The position numbers were made by a program, and so were the translations under genes. The notes under the pieces were generated by a model. That model was given only the letters and a program-made list of their open reading frames with translations. It was not told where the DNA came from and did no database searches. 64,000 nucleotides of DNA from Thauera chlorobenzoica (GTDB taxonomy: Bacteria > Pseudomonadota > Gammaproteobacteria > Burkholderiales > Rhodocyclaceae), in contig NZ_CP018839.1 of the NCBI RefSeq assembly GCF_001922305.1, positions 1,426,001 through 1,490,000 on the forward strand, written 5' to 3'. Positions within the stretch are counted from its first letter, which is position 1; each line of letters begins with the position of its first letter. Below, one piece after another: positions 37,205 through 64,000 of this stretch.

Positions 37205-37268
37205 GGGGTTGCCCCTTAGCGCCTAGGTGTTCGGACCGATTGTTGCGTTCCGGCCTGCGGGATTTAAT
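37205..37268 (+). promoter_or_regulatory. bbs operon operator and promoter (probable TdiR target)
   Basis: The operator has GGGGTTGCCCC and, 12 bases later, GTGTTCGGACCGATTG. The final TTG belongs to a -35 element TTGTTG (37,240). A 17-base spacer leads to TTTAAT (37,263), matching the -10 consensus at five of six positions. The same arrangement precedes bssD and occurs again near 63.9 kb. TdiR, the LuxR-type regulator encoded next to bss, is the inferred activator. Its position against the -35 box suits an activator that touches polymerase. Confidence 0.75.
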
Positions 37269-37308: not shown

Positions 37309-37743
37309 ATGTCAGAGCAAAAGACGAACAAGAAGCCGGAAAAGAAGCCGGATATCACGTTCTTCCACCCGGATCTTCTCGAGGCGCCCGCCGACGGCCG
37401 TGCGCCCTATCTCAAGGGCTACCGCTGCAAGAAATGCGGACAGCTGGATTTCCCGAAACTGAGCCCGTGCCCGAGCTGCTGGGGCGAGGAGTTCGAGGTC
37501 GTGCCGCTCAGCCGCCGCGGCAAGCTCTACAGCTTCAGCGACAACTTCATCGGCCAGGCGGGAATGAAGACCCCCTATTCGTTCGGCTATATCGACCTGC
37601 CCGAGAATCTGCGGATCTTCGCCCAGCTCGAAGGCGCGCCGGGCAGCTTCCGCTGCGACGACGAGGTCGAGTTGACGGTCGGGCCGGTGCGCGACAACCG
37701 CGACGGTGTGCCGCTGATCAGCTACAAGTTCCGCAAGATCTAA
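37309..37743 (+). CDS. bbsA: Benzoylsuccinyl-CoA thiolase, zinc-finger/OB subunit BbsA
   Basis: 144 residues with GGAGGT before the ATG. After a Lys-rich start comes a rubredoxin-like zinc site CKKCGQLDFPKLSPCPSCWG with four cysteines, then an OB-fold (LYSFSDNFIG, YIDLPENLRIFAQL), the DUF35 pattern. In Thauera/Geobacter, BbsA binds the thiolase subunit BbsB and both are required to cleave benzoylsuccinyl-CoA to benzoyl-CoA and succinyl-CoA, the last step of toluene beta-oxidation. bbsB follows 20 bases on. Confidence 0.93.
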   Translation: MSEQKTNKKPEKKPDITFFHPDLLEAPADGRAPYLKGYRCKKCGQLDFPKLSPCPSCWGEEFEVVPLSRRGKLYSFSDNFIGQAGMKTPYSFGYIDLPENLRIFAQLEGAPGSFRCDDEVELTVGPVRDNRDGVPLISYKFRKI

Positions 37744-58318: not shown

Positions 58319-59314
58319 TCAGTGATGCACTTCCAGGGCGATGCCCCCGGCTAGTTCGTTCTTGCCATTGGCGATGCCCACGATGCCGCCGATGGTGACG
58401 GCAAGCCCTCGGGCCTTCAATGCCTGCGCCAGCGGCACGATCTTTTCGGCAGGCGTCTCGTCCACGCCGCTGTACTGATAACTTCCGGCCCGGCCGAGAA
58501 AGGTGTATTTGCCTTCGCCGTAGCAGTGGAAATTGAGCAGATCGATTCCGCTGATCGCTGCTGCATGCTTGCCGAGATACTCGGCGTAAGCTTCGACATC
58601 GGCGTGCGAGTCGTTGAAGCCGGGAATCACCGGAATGTGGATGCGCACTTTTGCGCCTGCCGCGAACAGGGTTTCGAGATTCGCGAGAATCGGTGCGAGC
58701 GGCCAGCCGATGACTTCGAGGTGCTTGCGCGCGTCGAGCGTCTTCAGATCCACGATGAAAAGGTCGACGATGCCGATCATCGATTCGACGACTTTCCCCT
58801 GCTTCGGAAAGCACGAGGTTTCGATCGCGACATGAACGCCGCGGGCGTGCAATTCACCGGCGAGTTGCCGTGTGAAATCGGGGAAATAGAGGGGGTCGCC
58901 GCCGCTGATCGTGACGCCGCCGCCGCTATTGCGGTAGAACGCCGAATCGGACAGCGCCTCGCGCAGGATTTCCTCGACGCTCATGTGCTGCCCGACGATG
59001 GCGCGGGCTTCGGTCAGGCAGGCAGCGACGCAGCGCATGCATCGCTGGCAGTTCGTGCGGTCGATCTGGACGATCGTGCGACCGTCCGAATTGCGCACGA
59101 GGCGGGACGTCTCGGCGGGGCAGACGGCCACGCAGCGACCGCAGCCGACACAGCGATCCGGGTAGAAATAGAATTCCTGCCGTGCGTCCTGGGTTTCCGG
59201 GTTGTGGCACCAGGGGCAGCGCAGCGGGCAACCTTTCAGGAAAATGGTCGTCCTGATCCCAGGGCCGTCCTGAAGGCTGAACCTCTGTATTTCGGTAACA
59301 AGAGGAATTTTCAC
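58319..59314 (-). CDS. bssD: Benzylsuccinate synthase activating enzyme (radical SAM)
   Basis: 331 residues. The radical SAM motif CPLRCPWC uses Cys29, Cys33 and Cys36. Two ferredoxin-like 4Fe-4S sites follow, Cys55-58-61-65 (CVGCGRCVAVC) and Cys89-92-95-99 (CQRCMRCVAAC), as in activases of BssA and glycerol-dehydratase type enzymes. GGGVTISGGDPLYFP binds AdoMet. It generates the glycyl radical on BssA. First gene of the bss operon, with about 80 bases of leader after the predicted start point. Confidence 0.96.
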   Translation of the reverse strand: MKIPLVTEIQRFSLQDGPGIRTTIFLKGCPLRCPWCHNPETQDARQEFYFYPDRCVGCGRCVAVCPAETSRLVRNSDGRTIVQIDRTNCQRCMRCVAACLTEARAIVGQHMSVEEILREALSDSAFYRNSGGGVTISGGDPLYFPDFTRQLAGELHARGVHVAIETSCFPKQGKVVESMIGIVDLFIVDLKTLDARKHLEVIGWPLAPILANLETLFAAGAKVRIHIPVIPGFNDSHADVEAYAEYLGKHAAAISGIDLLNFHCYGEGKYTFLGRAGSYQYSGVDETPAEKIVPLAQALKARGLAVTIGGIVGIANGKNELAGGIALEVHH

Positions 59315-59399: not shown

Positions 59400-59462
59400 A
59401 ACTTAGGCCGCACAGGATCGTGCAGCAATTGGTGTGAGCACCTAAGCATAGGGGGCGGCCCC
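59400..59462 (-). promoter_or_regulatory. bss operon operator and promoter (probable TdiR target)
   Basis: Read on the minus strand: GGGGCCGCCCC, 11 bases, then GTGCTCACACCAATTG. The TTG belongs to a -35 element TTGCTG (59,428 to 59,423), followed by a 17-base spacer and TAAGTT as -10 (59,405 to 59,400). A small dyad GGTG-CTCA-CACC lies just before the -35. The same arrangement is found before bbsA. The transposon insertion ended 468 bases upstream, so this control region is untouched. TdiR binding is inferred. Confidence 0.75.
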
Positions 59463-59930: not shown

Positions 59931-61378
59931 GGCTCTATGCCGTTTCCAGTGGAAATTGACTTCTCAACAAACATGATCTTCGGTGGTCCAACCGCCCGAC
60001 ACTGACGCCGACCTCGCACCCGATGAACAACCAGATCGAAGCCCTCTTCACCACCGCACTTGGCCTGCAGCCGCCCTGGCAAGTCGCCAAGGTCGAGCTC
60101 AACACGGCCAAGCGGCGCATCGACTTCGAGGTCGAGCACACCGGCAAACGTGCGACCTGCCCGGCATGCGGGGTCGAGCAGCAGTTGATCCATGATCGCG
60201 TGCGCCGCAGTTGGCGACACCTGGACTTCTTCCAGTTCGAAGCCTGGCTCCATGCCGAGGTGCCGCGCGTGCAGTGCTCGGGCTGCGGCAAGACCACGCA
60301 GTTGCCGGTGCCGTGGGCACGCGAGGGCAGTGGCTTCACCTTGCTGTTCGAGGCGCTGGGCCTGTCGCTGTGCCGGGAATTGCCCGTGCGCCAGGCCGCC
60401 AATCAGATGCGGGTTGCACCAAAGCGGCTGTGGCGGCGGGTTCGCCACTACGTCGAGGTGGCGCGAGCCAAGGACGACATGTCGGGCGTGCGCCACGTGG
60501 GCATCGACGAGACCAGCGTCAAGCGTGGGCACCAGTACATCACCGTGGTGCATGACCTGGCGGCCAAGCGTTTGCTGTTCGCCTGCCCCGGTCGTGACCA
60601 TCAAACCCTGGGGGCCTTTTCGGAGGACATGCGCGCGCATGGCGGCGATCCGGTCACCATCGAACACGCCTGCATCGACATGAGCGCGGCGTACGCCAAG
60701 GGGATCAGTCAGTCGCTGCCCAACGCCCAGATCAGCTACGACCGCTTTCACGTCGTGGCGCTTGCCAACGCGGCGATGGATGAGGTGCGACGCGAAGAGA
60801 TGCGCAGCTCGGCCGCCGCCGTCCGCGAGGCGGTGGGCGTGCATAGCAAGAAGACCCTTCGCCAACTGCTGTGGGGCATGCGCAAGGACTCGGCGAGCTG
60901 GACTCGGGCGCAGTTCGAGGCGATGCACTGGCTGCAGCGCTCGAACCTGAAGAGCGCACGGGCCTGGCGACTCAAGCAGGCCCTGCGGCTGGTCTACCGC
61001 GAGGCGCGGGACAGCAACAGCGAAGAGCTCGCCCTGGGCGCATTGACGAAGTGGATGAGCTGGGCTCGACGCTCGCGGCTCGAGCCGTTCAAGCGCTTGG
61101 CGGCCACGTTGAAAGAGCATCTCGGCGGTGTCGTGCACGGCATGCTCGACGGGCGCAGCAACGCCTACGTCGAGGCGATGAACGGCCTGCTTCAGAAAGC
61201 GAAGACCGCCGCCCGAGGCTTCCGGGATCCCGAGAACTTCATCGCGATCGCCTACCTGCGAATGTCCAAGCTCGAGCATCTACCGAAGAACCCTCTGGTG
61301 CCGGCCATCCCCCGCGACTACGGGCGCTACCGTCATGTTTGTTGAGAAGTCAATTTCCACTGGAAACGGCATAGAGCC
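59931..61378. mobile_element. ISL3-family insertion sequence, complete with inverted repeats and 8-bp target duplication
   Basis: The 1,448-bp element is bounded by near-perfect inverted repeats of about 45 bases: both ends begin GGCTCTATGCCGTTTCCAGT on their outward strand and continue identically through the TTGACTTCTCAACAAACATGA region. It is flanked by the direct repeat CAGTCGCT at 59,923-59,930 and 61,379-61,386, the 8-bp duplication expected for this family. It carries one transposase gene on the plus strand, opposite to tdiR and bss. Clean ends and identical flanks indicate a recent insertion. Confidence 0.93.
60023..61345 (+). CDS. ISL3-family transposase (second copy, inside the insertion sequence)
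   Basis: 440 residues. An N-terminal zinc ribbon has CPACGVEQQ and CSGCGKTTQ. DDE core residues are Asp in GIDETSVKRGHQYITVVHD and CIDMSAAYAKGI, and Glu in YVEAMNGLLQKAKTAARGFRDPENFIAIAYLRM. The frame is intact from ATG to stop and nearly fills the element. The motif RFHVVALANAAMDEVRREE is diagnostic of ISL3. It is a different lineage from the transposase at 20.5-21.9 kb, although of the same family. Confidence 0.92.
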   Translation: MNNQIEALFTTALGLQPPWQVAKVELNTAKRRIDFEVEHTGKRATCPACGVEQQLIHDRVRRSWRHLDFFQFEAWLHAEVPRVQCSGCGKTTQLPVPWAREGSGFTLLFEALGLSLCRELPVRQAANQMRVAPKRLWRRVRHYVEVARAKDDMSGVRHVGIDETSVKRGHQYITVVHDLAAKRLLFACPGRDHQTLGAFSEDMRAHGGDPVTIEHACIDMSAAYAKGISQSLPNAQISYDRFHVVALANAAMDEVRREEMRSSAAAVREAVGVHSKKTLRQLLWGMRKDSASWTRAQFEAMHWLQRSNLKSARAWRLKQALRLVYREARDSNSEELALGALTKWMSWARRSRLEPFKRLAATLKEHLGGVVHGMLDGRSNAYVEAMNGLLQKAKTAARGFRDPENFIAIAYLRMSKLEHLPKNPLVPAIPRDYGRYRHVC

Positions 61379-62013
61379 CAGTCGCTGCAATGACTGCTGC
61401 CGCGCATGGCGAAGTGCATTAGATCGCCGGTGGATTTGAGCCCGAGCTTGCTGATGATGCGTCCGCGATGCGCTTCAACGGTCTTGTAACTGATGCCGAG
61501 CAGCTTGGCGATTTCCTTGCTGCTGCTTCCGGAAACGACCTTGTCCAGAATTTCCATTTCCCGTTGCGACAGGGTGGAGAGAAGGTCGAGGCGCTTCTGC
61601 TTTTCATTCTGCTTGTCCGCCATCTCCCGGTTCAGGGCAAGGGCGGCGTTTACCGCGTCGAGCAGGTCCTGGTTCCGGTACGGCTTCTGGAGAAAGTCGA
61701 AGGCACCTTTCTTTACCGCCTGGGCGCCCATCTGGGCGTCGCCGTAAGCCGAAAGGAAAATGATCGGCAGCTTGAAGCCTCTTTCCGACAGCGCCTGCTG
61801 CAATTGCAGACCGCTGACGTTCTGCATTCTGACATCCAGGACCACGCAGCCATGGGTGCATGAGATGTCGGCATCGAGGAAATCCTTCGCAGATTCGAAT
61901 GTCCGGACATCCAGCGAGATCGAATTGAGAAGCCAGGTCAGCGAATCCCTGACGGACGCTTCGTCGTCCACGACAAAAACAGTCGATGTATTTCCGGTTT
62001 TAGTGGCTTGCAT
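61333..62013 (-). CDS. tdiR: TdiR, LuxR-type response regulator with C-terminus replaced by insertion sequence
   Basis: 226 residues. A receiver domain (about 10-125) has VVDDEASVRDSL, phospho-acceptor Asp in VVLDVRMQNVSG, and KPYRNQDLLDAV. The LuxR HTH (about 145-205) is LSTLSQREMEILDKVVSGSSSKEIAKLLGISYKTVEAHRGRI ending GLKSTGDLMHFAMR. Residues up to 211 are native; the last 15 (WALCRFQWKLTSQQT) are read from the inverted repeat of the inserted element, replacing 16 native residues. Because the HTH is complete, activity is likely kept. It activates bss and bbs in response to TdiS. 57 bases separate it from tdiS. Confidence 0.9.
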   Translation of the reverse strand: MQATKTGNTSTVFVVDDEASVRDSLTWLLNSISLDVRTFESAKDFLDADISCTHGCVVLDVRMQNVSGLQLQQALSERGFKLPIIFLSAYGDAQMGAQAVKKGAFDFLQKPYRNQDLLDAVNAALALNREMADKQNEKQKRLDLLSTLSQREMEILDKVVSGSSSKEIAKLLGISYKTVEAHRGRIISKLGLKSTGDLMHFAMRGSSHCSDWALCRFQWKLTSQQT

Positions 62014-62070: not shown

Positions 62071-63717
62071 TCATATTGGCAATGTGAACTGGAATTTCGA
62101 TCCGCGCTCTCCGGTTTTCGAAAAAGAGAGCTCTCCGCCATGCGATTCGATGATCGACCGGCAAATCGTGAGCCCGATTCCGAGCCCGTCCGGTTTGGTC
62201 GTGAAGTAGGGCTCGAACGCACGTTTTGCTGCGCGCTTCTCGACCCCGATTCCATGGTCCTGGACGAATATTTTCATCGATCTTCCGTCCGGGGAGATTT
62301 CATTTCCGATGGTCAGTATGCGCGACTCCGGTTCCATTTCAGACATTGCCTCAATGCCATTTTTCACCAGATTGAACAGGACCTGTTGAATCTCGATCTT
62401 GCACAGGGGGACGGGTGGGGGAGAGGGTATCAGCTGCAGATTTACGGTAACGTTGTGCCGGTGGACGTCGAAGCTGAGAAAGGAGAGAGTGTCCTGAATG
62501 ACTTCGTTGATATTCTCCGGCGTCCTTTCCGGCGCGTGCTTGCAGACGAAATCCTTCACCCGCCGCAGGATTTCACCAGCCTGATCGAGATGCGTGATCG
62601 CCAGGCCGAGCGATTGGGATATCTCCGCGGCTCCGCTGATGTGCTCGAGCCGGAGGCGGCAGCCTTGCAGGTAGTTGAGTGCGGAAACGAGGGGCTGGCC
62701 CATCTGGTGTGCCAGCGCGGCAGCCATTCCGGCCATTGCATTGATGCGCCCGAGGCGGGTGAGCTCCGCGTGGCGCAGCCTTTCCAGTTCCTCGATCCGT
62801 TTACGGTAGGTGATGTCGGTGAAGGCGGCCACGACCATTTTTTGCCCCTTCAGCTCAAGCAACGATGAACTGACGCTCAGCCATCGCTGCTTGCGACTTT
62901 CTTCTTCACGCATGCCGATTTCGATGTTCTTGATCGAATCTTTTTGAACGCCGTGAATCCGCCAGGGCAATCTTTTTTTTGCGACTCTTGTCCCGTCGCT
63001 GAGGAAGAAGCGTTGTGGCAGTTGTTGCCAGGTGATGGGCGGCTTCTCGGGTGTTCCCACCAGTTCGGTGAACTGGCGGTTGGCTTCGAGGATCCTGCCG
63101 CCGTCATCAGTGATCGATATCCCGATTGGAAGCATGTGGAACAGCTTCTCGTATTTTTCCCTGTGCTCATTCGCAACGTCTTCGGCCCGCTTGCGTGTCG
63201 CGACTTCCTGCTCGAGTTTGCTGACATGCTTGTGCAGCTCGAGCGTCCGCTGGTGGACCAGGATTTCCAGTTTCTCGACGCTGGCCTTCAGGTCGTCTTC
63301 GGTGCGCTTGTGTTCGGATATGTCCTGAACGACCCAGATCGAACCGAGACGAGGGTTGGATGAATCGAGCAGGGAACCGGTGACGATGCACCATACGACC
63401 GACCCGTCTTTGCGAATGATTGGGCGTTCGTCCTTGAACGTGTCGTGGCGCTCGAAGAAATGACCATAGTTTTCCCCGATGGTCCGAAATGATTCGTCGG
63501 TTGGATAAAGCAGCCGTACCGATTTGTTGTCGAGCTCACCTCTTGCGTATCCGAATAATTCCTCGAACCGGGTATTGCAGCGAACGAACGCACGATTGCG
63601 CAGATGGCAAATCGCCAGCGGTGTGTTGCGAAAGATGACTTCGTAACCGGTGGCGGAATCGTTCCCGTGGTCCACTTCCATTTCCGCTTCGGTTGATGCA
63701 ATTGCGTTTCCACTCAC
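62071..63717 (-). CDS. tdiS: TdiS, cytoplasmic PAS-domain sensor histidine kinase for toluene
   Basis: 548 residues with no membrane segment. Two PAS domains (about 20-130 and 185-300: YEVIFRNTPLAICHLRNRAFVRCNTRFEELFGY and LPIGISITDDGGRILEANRQFTELVGTPE) are separated by a coiled coil. The kinase core has the H-box AALAHQMGQPLVSALNYLQ near residue 345, N-box FNLVKNGIEAM, DHGIGVE, and GLGIGLTICRSIIESHGG. TodS/FixL-like logic: toluene or a related ligand, possibly together with oxygen status, is sensed in the PAS domains. TdiR is the partner. The DNA is visibly less GC-rich than neighbouring genes, suggesting transfer of the regulator pair. Confidence 0.9.
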   Translation of the reverse strand: MSGNAIASTEAEMEVDHGNDSATGYEVIFRNTPLAICHLRNRAFVRCNTRFEELFGYARGELDNKSVRLLYPTDESFRTIGENYGHFFERHDTFKDERPIIRKDGSVVWCIVTGSLLDSSNPRLGSIWVVQDISEHKRTEDDLKASVEKLEILVHQRTLELHKHVSKLEQEVATRKRAEDVANEHREKYEKLFHMLPIGISITDDGGRILEANRQFTELVGTPEKPPITWQQLPQRFFLSDGTRVAKKRLPWRIHGVQKDSIKNIEIGMREEESRKQRWLSVSSSLLELKGQKMVVAAFTDITYRKRIEELERLRHAELTRLGRINAMAGMAAALAHQMGQPLVSALNYLQGCRLRLEHISGAAEISQSLGLAITHLDQAGEILRRVKDFVCKHAPERTPENINEVIQDTLSFLSFDVHRHNVTVNLQLIPSPPPVPLCKIEIQQVLFNLVKNGIEAMSEMEPESRILTIGNEISPDGRSMKIFVQDHGIGVEKRAAKRAFEPYFTTKPDGLGIGLTICRSIIESHGGELSFSKTGERGSKFQFTLPI

Positions 63718-63854: not shown

Positions 63855-63918
63855 AGGGTTGCCCCTAGGTGTTCGAGTGCTAGCACCAATTGCCGGTTCT
63901 CTGCAAGGTCCTTAGCTT
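63855..63918 (+). promoter_or_regulatory. Third copy of the bss/bbs-type operator-promoter, facing right off the window
   Basis: AGGGTTGCCCC, 12 bases, then GTGCTAGCACCAATTG; the TTG starts a -35 element TTGCCG (63,890), then 17 bases and TAGCTT (63,913). The distance from the GGG block to ATTG (34 bases) equals that at bbs, and the match to the bss core includes GTGCT and CACCAATTG. It faces away from tdiS, so it should drive a gene beyond position 64,000. The 80 bases after it hold only an undecided short frame beginning ATGGGC at 63,925. Confidence 0.65.
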
Positions 63919-64000
63919 ACATCCATGGGCGCATGGCTGAGCGGTCCCGGAAAATCATCGCCTGAAGTCGCTTCGGAGCGTCACGGGATGGCTGGAGCGT

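Follow-up and report, generated by a model that had tools for sequence, protein, structure and literature searches.

How far does the toluene regulon of Thauera chlorobenzoica reach beyond the genes of the degradation pathway? The question is raised by a 64,000-nucleotide stretch of its one-contig genome (3,735,506 bases; G000:C1:1,426,001-1,490,000, hereafter the window), which holds the bss and bbs operons and the regulatory genes tdiS and tdiR and, close to its right end at 63,855-63,918, a third copy of the control element that precedes bss and bbs. Judged by its sequence, this third copy is probably the third promoter of the TdiSR regulon, driving a predicted pump operon of four genes (DUF1302-DUF1329-YCF48-RND).

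A third copy of the bss and bbs control element

The 16-mer GTGYTNNSACCRATTG occurs with 0 mismatches at window positions 37,227-37,242 (+), 59,426-59,441 (-) and 63,877-63,892 (+), and these are its only exact matches in the whole genome, in which the reversed pattern, used as a control, had 0. It overlaps the palindrome published as the proposed TdiR operator (PMC5874301). The three-copy composite motif of the preliminary description of this DNA is borne out by these three matches. When the composite was searched with a spacer of 11 bases and up to 3 mismatches, the window matched at 37,205 and 63,855 (mean of 100 shuffles, 0.00); the bss copy has the same parts as the other two, with a spacer one base shorter. 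Counted manually, the spacers from the dyad to GTG are 11 bases at bbs, 10 at bss and 11 at the third copy, which corrects the range of 11-12 given earlier. The upstream dyads are GGGGTTGCCCC at bbs, GGGGCCGCCCC at bss and AGGGTTGCCCC at the third copy. As had been described, the first two copies face their own operons: the bbs copy (composite element and promoter, 37,205-37,265, +) faces the first bbs gene at 37,309, and the bss copy, TTAGGTGCTCACACCAATTG (59,426-59,445, -), faces bssD.

The third copy has the geometry of a promoter. Its upstream G/C dyad (63,855-63,865, +) is centred about two helical turns upstream of the centre of a candidate TdiR-type operator, A-GTGCTAGCACC-A (63,876-63,888, +), the equivalent of the GGTGTTCGCACC palindrome reported at PbssD and PbbsA as the proposed TdiR operator (PMC5874301). 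This related palindrome, its left half-site degraded, sits directly 5' of a -35-like hexamer, TTGCCG (63,890-63,895, +), the TTG of which is implied by the searched pattern. A 17-base spacer separates it from a -10-like hexamer, TAGCTT (63,913-63,918, +), after which a 5' leader starts and continues beyond the window (63,919-64,000, +). Both the TTG-led -35 box with a -10-like hexamer 17 bases on and the rightward orientation had been anticipated; the 16-mer lies on the plus strand and tdiS on the opposite strand, divergently.

The locus L002, in which positions equal window positions minus 60,000, reaches past the right end of the window. It contains four genes side by side on the plus strand, all above Pfam cut-offs and predicted to form an operon: a DUF1302 gene (L002:4079-5773, window-equivalent 64,079-65,773; Pfam DUF1302, 6.3e-126), a DUF1329 gene (L002:5802-7154; DUF1329, 1e-127), a YCF48/BNR-like gene (L002:7246-8400; PSII_BNR, 1.5e-25) and an RND/MMPL gene (L002:8400-10940; MMPL, 3.9e-20). 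The unit TTGCCG-17-TAGCTT faces the start of the first, where a Shine-Dalgarno-like AGGAGGA and an ATG (L002:4079) open the frame 186 bases past the element, within the 100-200 bases in which a rightward gene had been predicted. The further prediction, an unlisted member of the toluene regulon such as an uptake porin, is supported: a DUF1302 gene, whose counterpart AmeA is of the outer-membrane type, does come first and the pairing recurs in nine genomes that also have the bss and bbs elements, but AmeABCD, the characterised relative, is described as an exporter and not as an uptake porin. Among solved structures, the DUF1302 and DUF1329 proteins had no sequence match at E <= 0.01, and the RND protein had one PDB sequence match at E <= 1e-5, to HpnN (3.1e-7).

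The element recurs before pump operons in other genomes

Conservation was assessed in a family sample of 297 genomes, 10 of which passed a BssA threshold of E <= 1e-150. In nine genomes, counting that of the window, bss, bbs and a pump operon are each preceded by the element: G000, G048, G100, G276, G044, G249 (two sets), G233, G167 and G297. Eight are BssA genomes of the sample (8 of 10 have all three sites), and the ninth, G297, the Herminiimonas genome of locus L007, lies outside it. G298 (A. tolulyticum) and G167 were counted once, as their site coordinates agree, and G167 was read through this twin record. A composite-motif search of other bss-containing genomes had been proposed as a check, and this pairing of element and pump is its outcome. 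At the level of sequence, the third TdiR-type promoter is real and conserved, and the toluene response probably includes the pump.

Across the 297 genomes the exact 16-mer was found 28 times, in 20 genomes (reversed pattern, 3): 7 of the 10 BssA genomes account for 15 occurrences, and 13 of the 287 others for the remaining 13. Within 1.5 kb of the latter 13, tblastn gave no match to a toluene or pump query except a 25% histidine-kinase match at L028. The 20-mer TTARGTGTNCGCACCAATTG was found with up to 3 mismatches at 31 places in 9 genomes (reversed control, 1). Two of its matches, both away from any bss, bbs or pump operon, were considered as a fourth regulon member and were not counted: G249:C1:3712071 lies inside a coding frame, and G100:C2:82720 has 3 mismatches. 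G017 combines a bss candidate with another site, directed off the start of its contig, and a lipoprotein-like start was read by eye some 190 bases further on.

Two arrangements of the pump operon were found. In G048, of the same genus, the element lies between tdiS and a DUF1302 gene 96.3% identical to that of the window, followed by DUF1329, YCF48 and RND genes. G100 is strain EbN1 or nearly equal to it, as 13 of 13 published EbN1 primers tried match its locus L088 exactly, and it has the same operon (DUF1302 84-86%), located at about C1:1,130,460-1,137,199, behind a stronger element. The second arrangement, YCF48-RND-DUF1302-DUF1329, follows the 20-mer in G276 (Pfam), where the site lies between tdiR and bbs, and is also present in G044, G249 (two sets), G233, G167 and G297 (homologues); its RND protein is about 25-30% identical to that of the window. 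From these sequences, it appears that a conserved switch received a different pump operon, or else that pump operons acquired the switch on more than one occasion.

In G249, which has two complete sets of bss, bbs and pump elements, the RND gene of one set is split by an in-frame TAG (L050; G249:C1:1,614,483-1,616,899). More than one tdiS copy was seen in G276 (L042, L043), G233 (L054, L084) and G249 (L048, L050, L051, three copies), one beside bss and another accompanied by tdiR near bbs, on the upstream side of the pump operon.

Strength of the site in the window

We scored the sites with a weight matrix trained on 18 unique bss and bbs sites only, with the pump sites held out. The alignment of 30 sites is without the bbs site of G167, since the contig ends there, and its members are not independent because G044 and one G249 set are nearly identical. 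The training sites scored 28.7-38.0. The matrix gave 25.2-37.5 for 9 of the 11 pump operons (G116, 25.2; eight others, 32.3-37.5), and 21.1 and 16.8 for G048 and the window. At the 17-base spacing, 21 of 30 sites have T as the first and sixth base of the -10 hexamer, against at most 9 of 30 at eight other shifts. Measured from the operator centre, the upstream dyad lies at about -21 to -23 for bss, bbs and most pump sites; in the pump sites of G044, G249b, G167 and G116 it is poorly formed or shifted.

Several observations weigh against a TdiR-controlled pump promoter at this site. The window copy, at 16.8, is the weakest of the 30 scored sites (next lowest, G048), and 20 Mb of random 66% GC sequence, one strand, held 4 matches of at least 16, so that the score alone would not single the site out genome-wide. 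Its left half-site is largely lost (TCGAGTG vs TTAGGTG), the site escapes the 20-mer search at up to 3 mismatches, and the -10 hexamer TAGCTT is weak. The pump operon of G116 lies near bss behind a site 3 mismatches from the 20-mer, and its bss site is itself only a 3-mismatch candidate. The best NCBIfam model for the RND protein, HAE3, scores 159.2, below the cut-off of 351.9. Finally, a palindrome in the leader of G000 and G048, discussed below, hints at a second regulator. The case for the window site is built on its right half-site, dyad, promoter spacing, position and composite structure and on its conservation in orthologues. An operator that is perfect apart from an 8-base insertion was rejected by eye: the distance from dyad to operator is the same as in G100, so substitutions would explain the window's version.

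Alternative explanations

The alternative that survives best, although we consider it unlikely, concerns direction: the system could be an uptake route for toluene or an aromatic acid and not an exporter. The cassettes adjoin different aromatic pathways, which fits uptake and export equally. Toluene crosses membranes unaided, a point that counts against uptake. Mutants deleted for ameABCD tolerate monoterpenes less well and accumulate more Nile Red (PMC6394551), which makes export the likelier direction.

A second alternative, which we consider improbable, is that the element mainly serves tdiS, through activation of PtdiS by TdiR, a part that the region between tdiS and bssD may play in Azoarcus sp. 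CIB, and that the pump operon is a bystander. In the window and in G048, tdiS is indeed divergent from the third element and not from bssD. However, the pump element is present without being divergent from tdiS in G100, G276, G044, G249, G233, G167 and G297, and the window's -35 and -10 hexamers, at their 17-base spacing, face the pump operon. The pump element of G100 lies 11.5 kb beyond the bbs element, and tdiS adjoins bssD at a distance of about 32 kb. The element there goes with the pump operon and not with tdiS, and its presence cannot be put down to tdiS autoregulation. The window element may additionally serve the divergent tdiS.

No more probable is control by another regulator, for example a TetR-type repressor, with TdiR in a minor role. 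The leader of the pump operon contains a perfect palindrome, CTGAACGGTCGTTCAG (L002:4038-4053, window-equivalent 64,038-64,053), which is kept in G048 and which we read as TetR-operator-like. At up to 2 mismatches it is absent from L041, the toluene copy of G100, and from the paralogue loci L085, L086, L087 and L089, for which reason it was rejected as part of the family signal; its one match in L088 (2 mismatches) is far from the operon. The TdiR element, by contrast, is kept in G100.

That the element is a chance match or a decayed remnant, unused in this genome, would agree with its lowest score and poor left half-site but is very improbable, as the genome has no more than three exact copies of the 16-mer, both the upstream dyad and the 17-base promoter spacing have been retained, and the same position scores 21.1 in G048 and the site of the orthologous G100 operon 37.5.

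Paralogous pump cassettes carry other switches

The element check covered DUF1302 paralogues down to about 65% identity. In five paralogue loci of 20 kb each the element was not found (best matrix scores -0.4, 0.4, 1.3, 11.1 and 13.0); the 13.0 match (L088:11606) is upstream of a DUF1302 gene and faces away from it. G000 has a second cassette at C1:1,713-1,720 kb, near genes for an FAD-linked oxidase and an XylR_N/sigma-54 activator, where we read TGGCATGATCCATGCT as a candidate -24/-12 promoter. EbN1 has two further cassettes. Genes for acetoacetate-CoA ligase and biotin carboxylase lie near one of them; the second, located at L088 by primer matches, is the 'efflux' cluster ebA335-ebA326, and its transcripts need EtpR, the neighbouring pathway regulator (PMC4630880). 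The cassette is thus portable, with a different switch at each copy seen, and this is the strongest analogy for the mechanism proposed below.

The YCF48 and RND genes of the two G000 cassettes (L002:7246-10940 and L085) have 99.7-99.8% DNA identity, their G048 orthologues about 95%, and the promoters and leaders of the two cassettes differ, a gene-conversion pattern that is repeated in G048 and partly in G100. The window's DUF1329 gene (L002:5802-7154) has 70.2-77.4% DNA identity to seven other copies compared, falling after about 300 bases as if a segment had been replaced.

Genes around the element

The gene divergent from the element (62,071-63,717, -) encodes a PAS sensor histidine kinase (Pfam PAS and HATPase_c) and is named tdiS by synteny and similarity; its product is 96.8% identical over 468 residues to the copy that adjoins the same element in G048. 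Next to it, tdiR (61,333-62,013, -) encodes a FixJ/NarL-type response regulator (Pfam Response_reg and GerE; best NCBIfam model FixJ, below cut-off). An ISL3-family transposase gene (60,023-61,345, +; Pfam DDE_Tnp_ISL3) is inserted between tdiR and bss, and the distance from the third element to the bss element is 4,451 bases in the window vs 2,998 in G048, about 1.45 kb shorter. BssD is encoded at 58,319-59,314 (Radical_SAM). The first bbs gene (37,309) had no Pfam match at 1e-10, and the name bbs for its operon was taken from the preliminary description and is kept by synteny. Downstream of the pump operon, on the same strand, are ETF beta-like and NAD(P) transhydrogenase (PntA/PntB-like) genes (L002:11451-16406).

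Proposed mechanism and significance

TdiR binding, induction, export and cargo are what we infer, as follows. While toluene is converted to benzylsuccinate, TdiS would activate TdiR, which would bind the palindrome abutting the -35 and recruit RNA polymerase in the manner suggested for bss and bbs. Transcription would start near 63,925 and run through a leader of about 150 bases into the DUF1302-DUF1329-YCF48-RND genes, whose products would assemble into a tetrapartite envelope transporter of the AmeABCD kind. The most likely task of this transporter would be to expel toluene or some other hydrophobic compound during operation of the pathway.

A wider reading, tentative and on balance somewhat doubtful, is that the anaerobic toluene regulon of betaproteobacteria has three standing units instead of two, a dedicated envelope pump joining bss and bbs, and that the operator is fixed in front of pump cassettes of two greatly differing kinds. 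Since benzylsuccinate is the reported signal for TdiSR, the product of the pathway and not the solvent would switch the pump on; its cargo may then be a compound of the pathway, or toluene, in the latter case only after degradation has started.

The switch and the pump type are each already known. The literature searched, which included few subscription journals, yielded no report linking TdiR to this pump operon and none that treats TdiR, efflux and toluene together. The pairing would add a transport operon to a regulon described there as bss, bbs and tdiSR, and is relevant to solvent tolerance in bioremediation and to reading the genomes of toluene degraders. Work by Kuhner in 2005 reportedly implicated the products of ebA1932 and ebA1936, near bbs in EbN1, in toluene degradation. 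We presume that the DUF1329 and DUF1302 proteins encoded here could be these two products, in which case toluene induction of the operon would already be partly shown.

Comparison with known systems

In strain CIB, TdiR activates PbssD, PbbsA and PtdiS, and benzylsuccinate is the likely inducer; EbN1 is described in the same source as showing no induction by benzylsuccinate in a pyruvate mixture (PMC5874301). Extracts with K172 TdiR shift the bssD promoter (Leuthner and Heider 1998, cited in PMC5874301). PbssD and PbbsA of denitrifying toluene degraders carry the proposed TdiR operator GGTGTTCGCACC, and Magnetospirillum 15-1 has the version ARGTGTYCGCACC; the parts of these publications available to us place the motif at bss and bbs only. 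The third promoter resembles these promoters in its palindrome abutting the -35, its upstream dyad and its 17-base spacer. It differs in that it would drive a transport operon and not catabolic enzymes, and in its weaker left half-site in the window and in G048.

The pump operon is most like AmeABCD of Castellaniella defragrans, a monoterpene exporter as its deletion phenotype suggests, in which the DUF1302 protein, AmeA, is of the outer-membrane type (PMC6394551). DUF1302, DUF1329, photosystem-II-assembly-factor-like and RND proteins are encoded there in the same order as beside the window, whereas six of the nine genomes have the order YCF48-RND-DUF1302-DUF1329. AmeABCD is tied to monoterpene metabolism; the predicted operon described here stands behind a toluene-type operator.

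A published CIB primer at PbbsA matches G044 exactly, and G249 too. Because G044 carries it, the rearranged pump genes of G044 correspond by position to orfB-orfE beside bbs in Azoarcus sp. CIB. These are called proteins of unknown function and, in the available part of the source, are assigned no promoter (PMC5874301); the present reading gives them a testable role and a candidate regulator.

The 'efflux' cluster of EbN1, under EtpR in p-ethylphenol metabolism, is a paralogous cassette in the same genome as one toluene copy, with DNA identities to that copy of 83.7% (DUF1302) and 96.9% (RND). It is unlike the toluene copy in having sigma-54-type promoter motifs and EtpR in place of the TdiR element (PMC4630880). 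Together, the two point to a group-wide design in which copies of one pump cassette would each answer to the regulator of another aromatic pathway: TdiR in the case of toluene and, as published, EtpR in that of p-ethylphenol.
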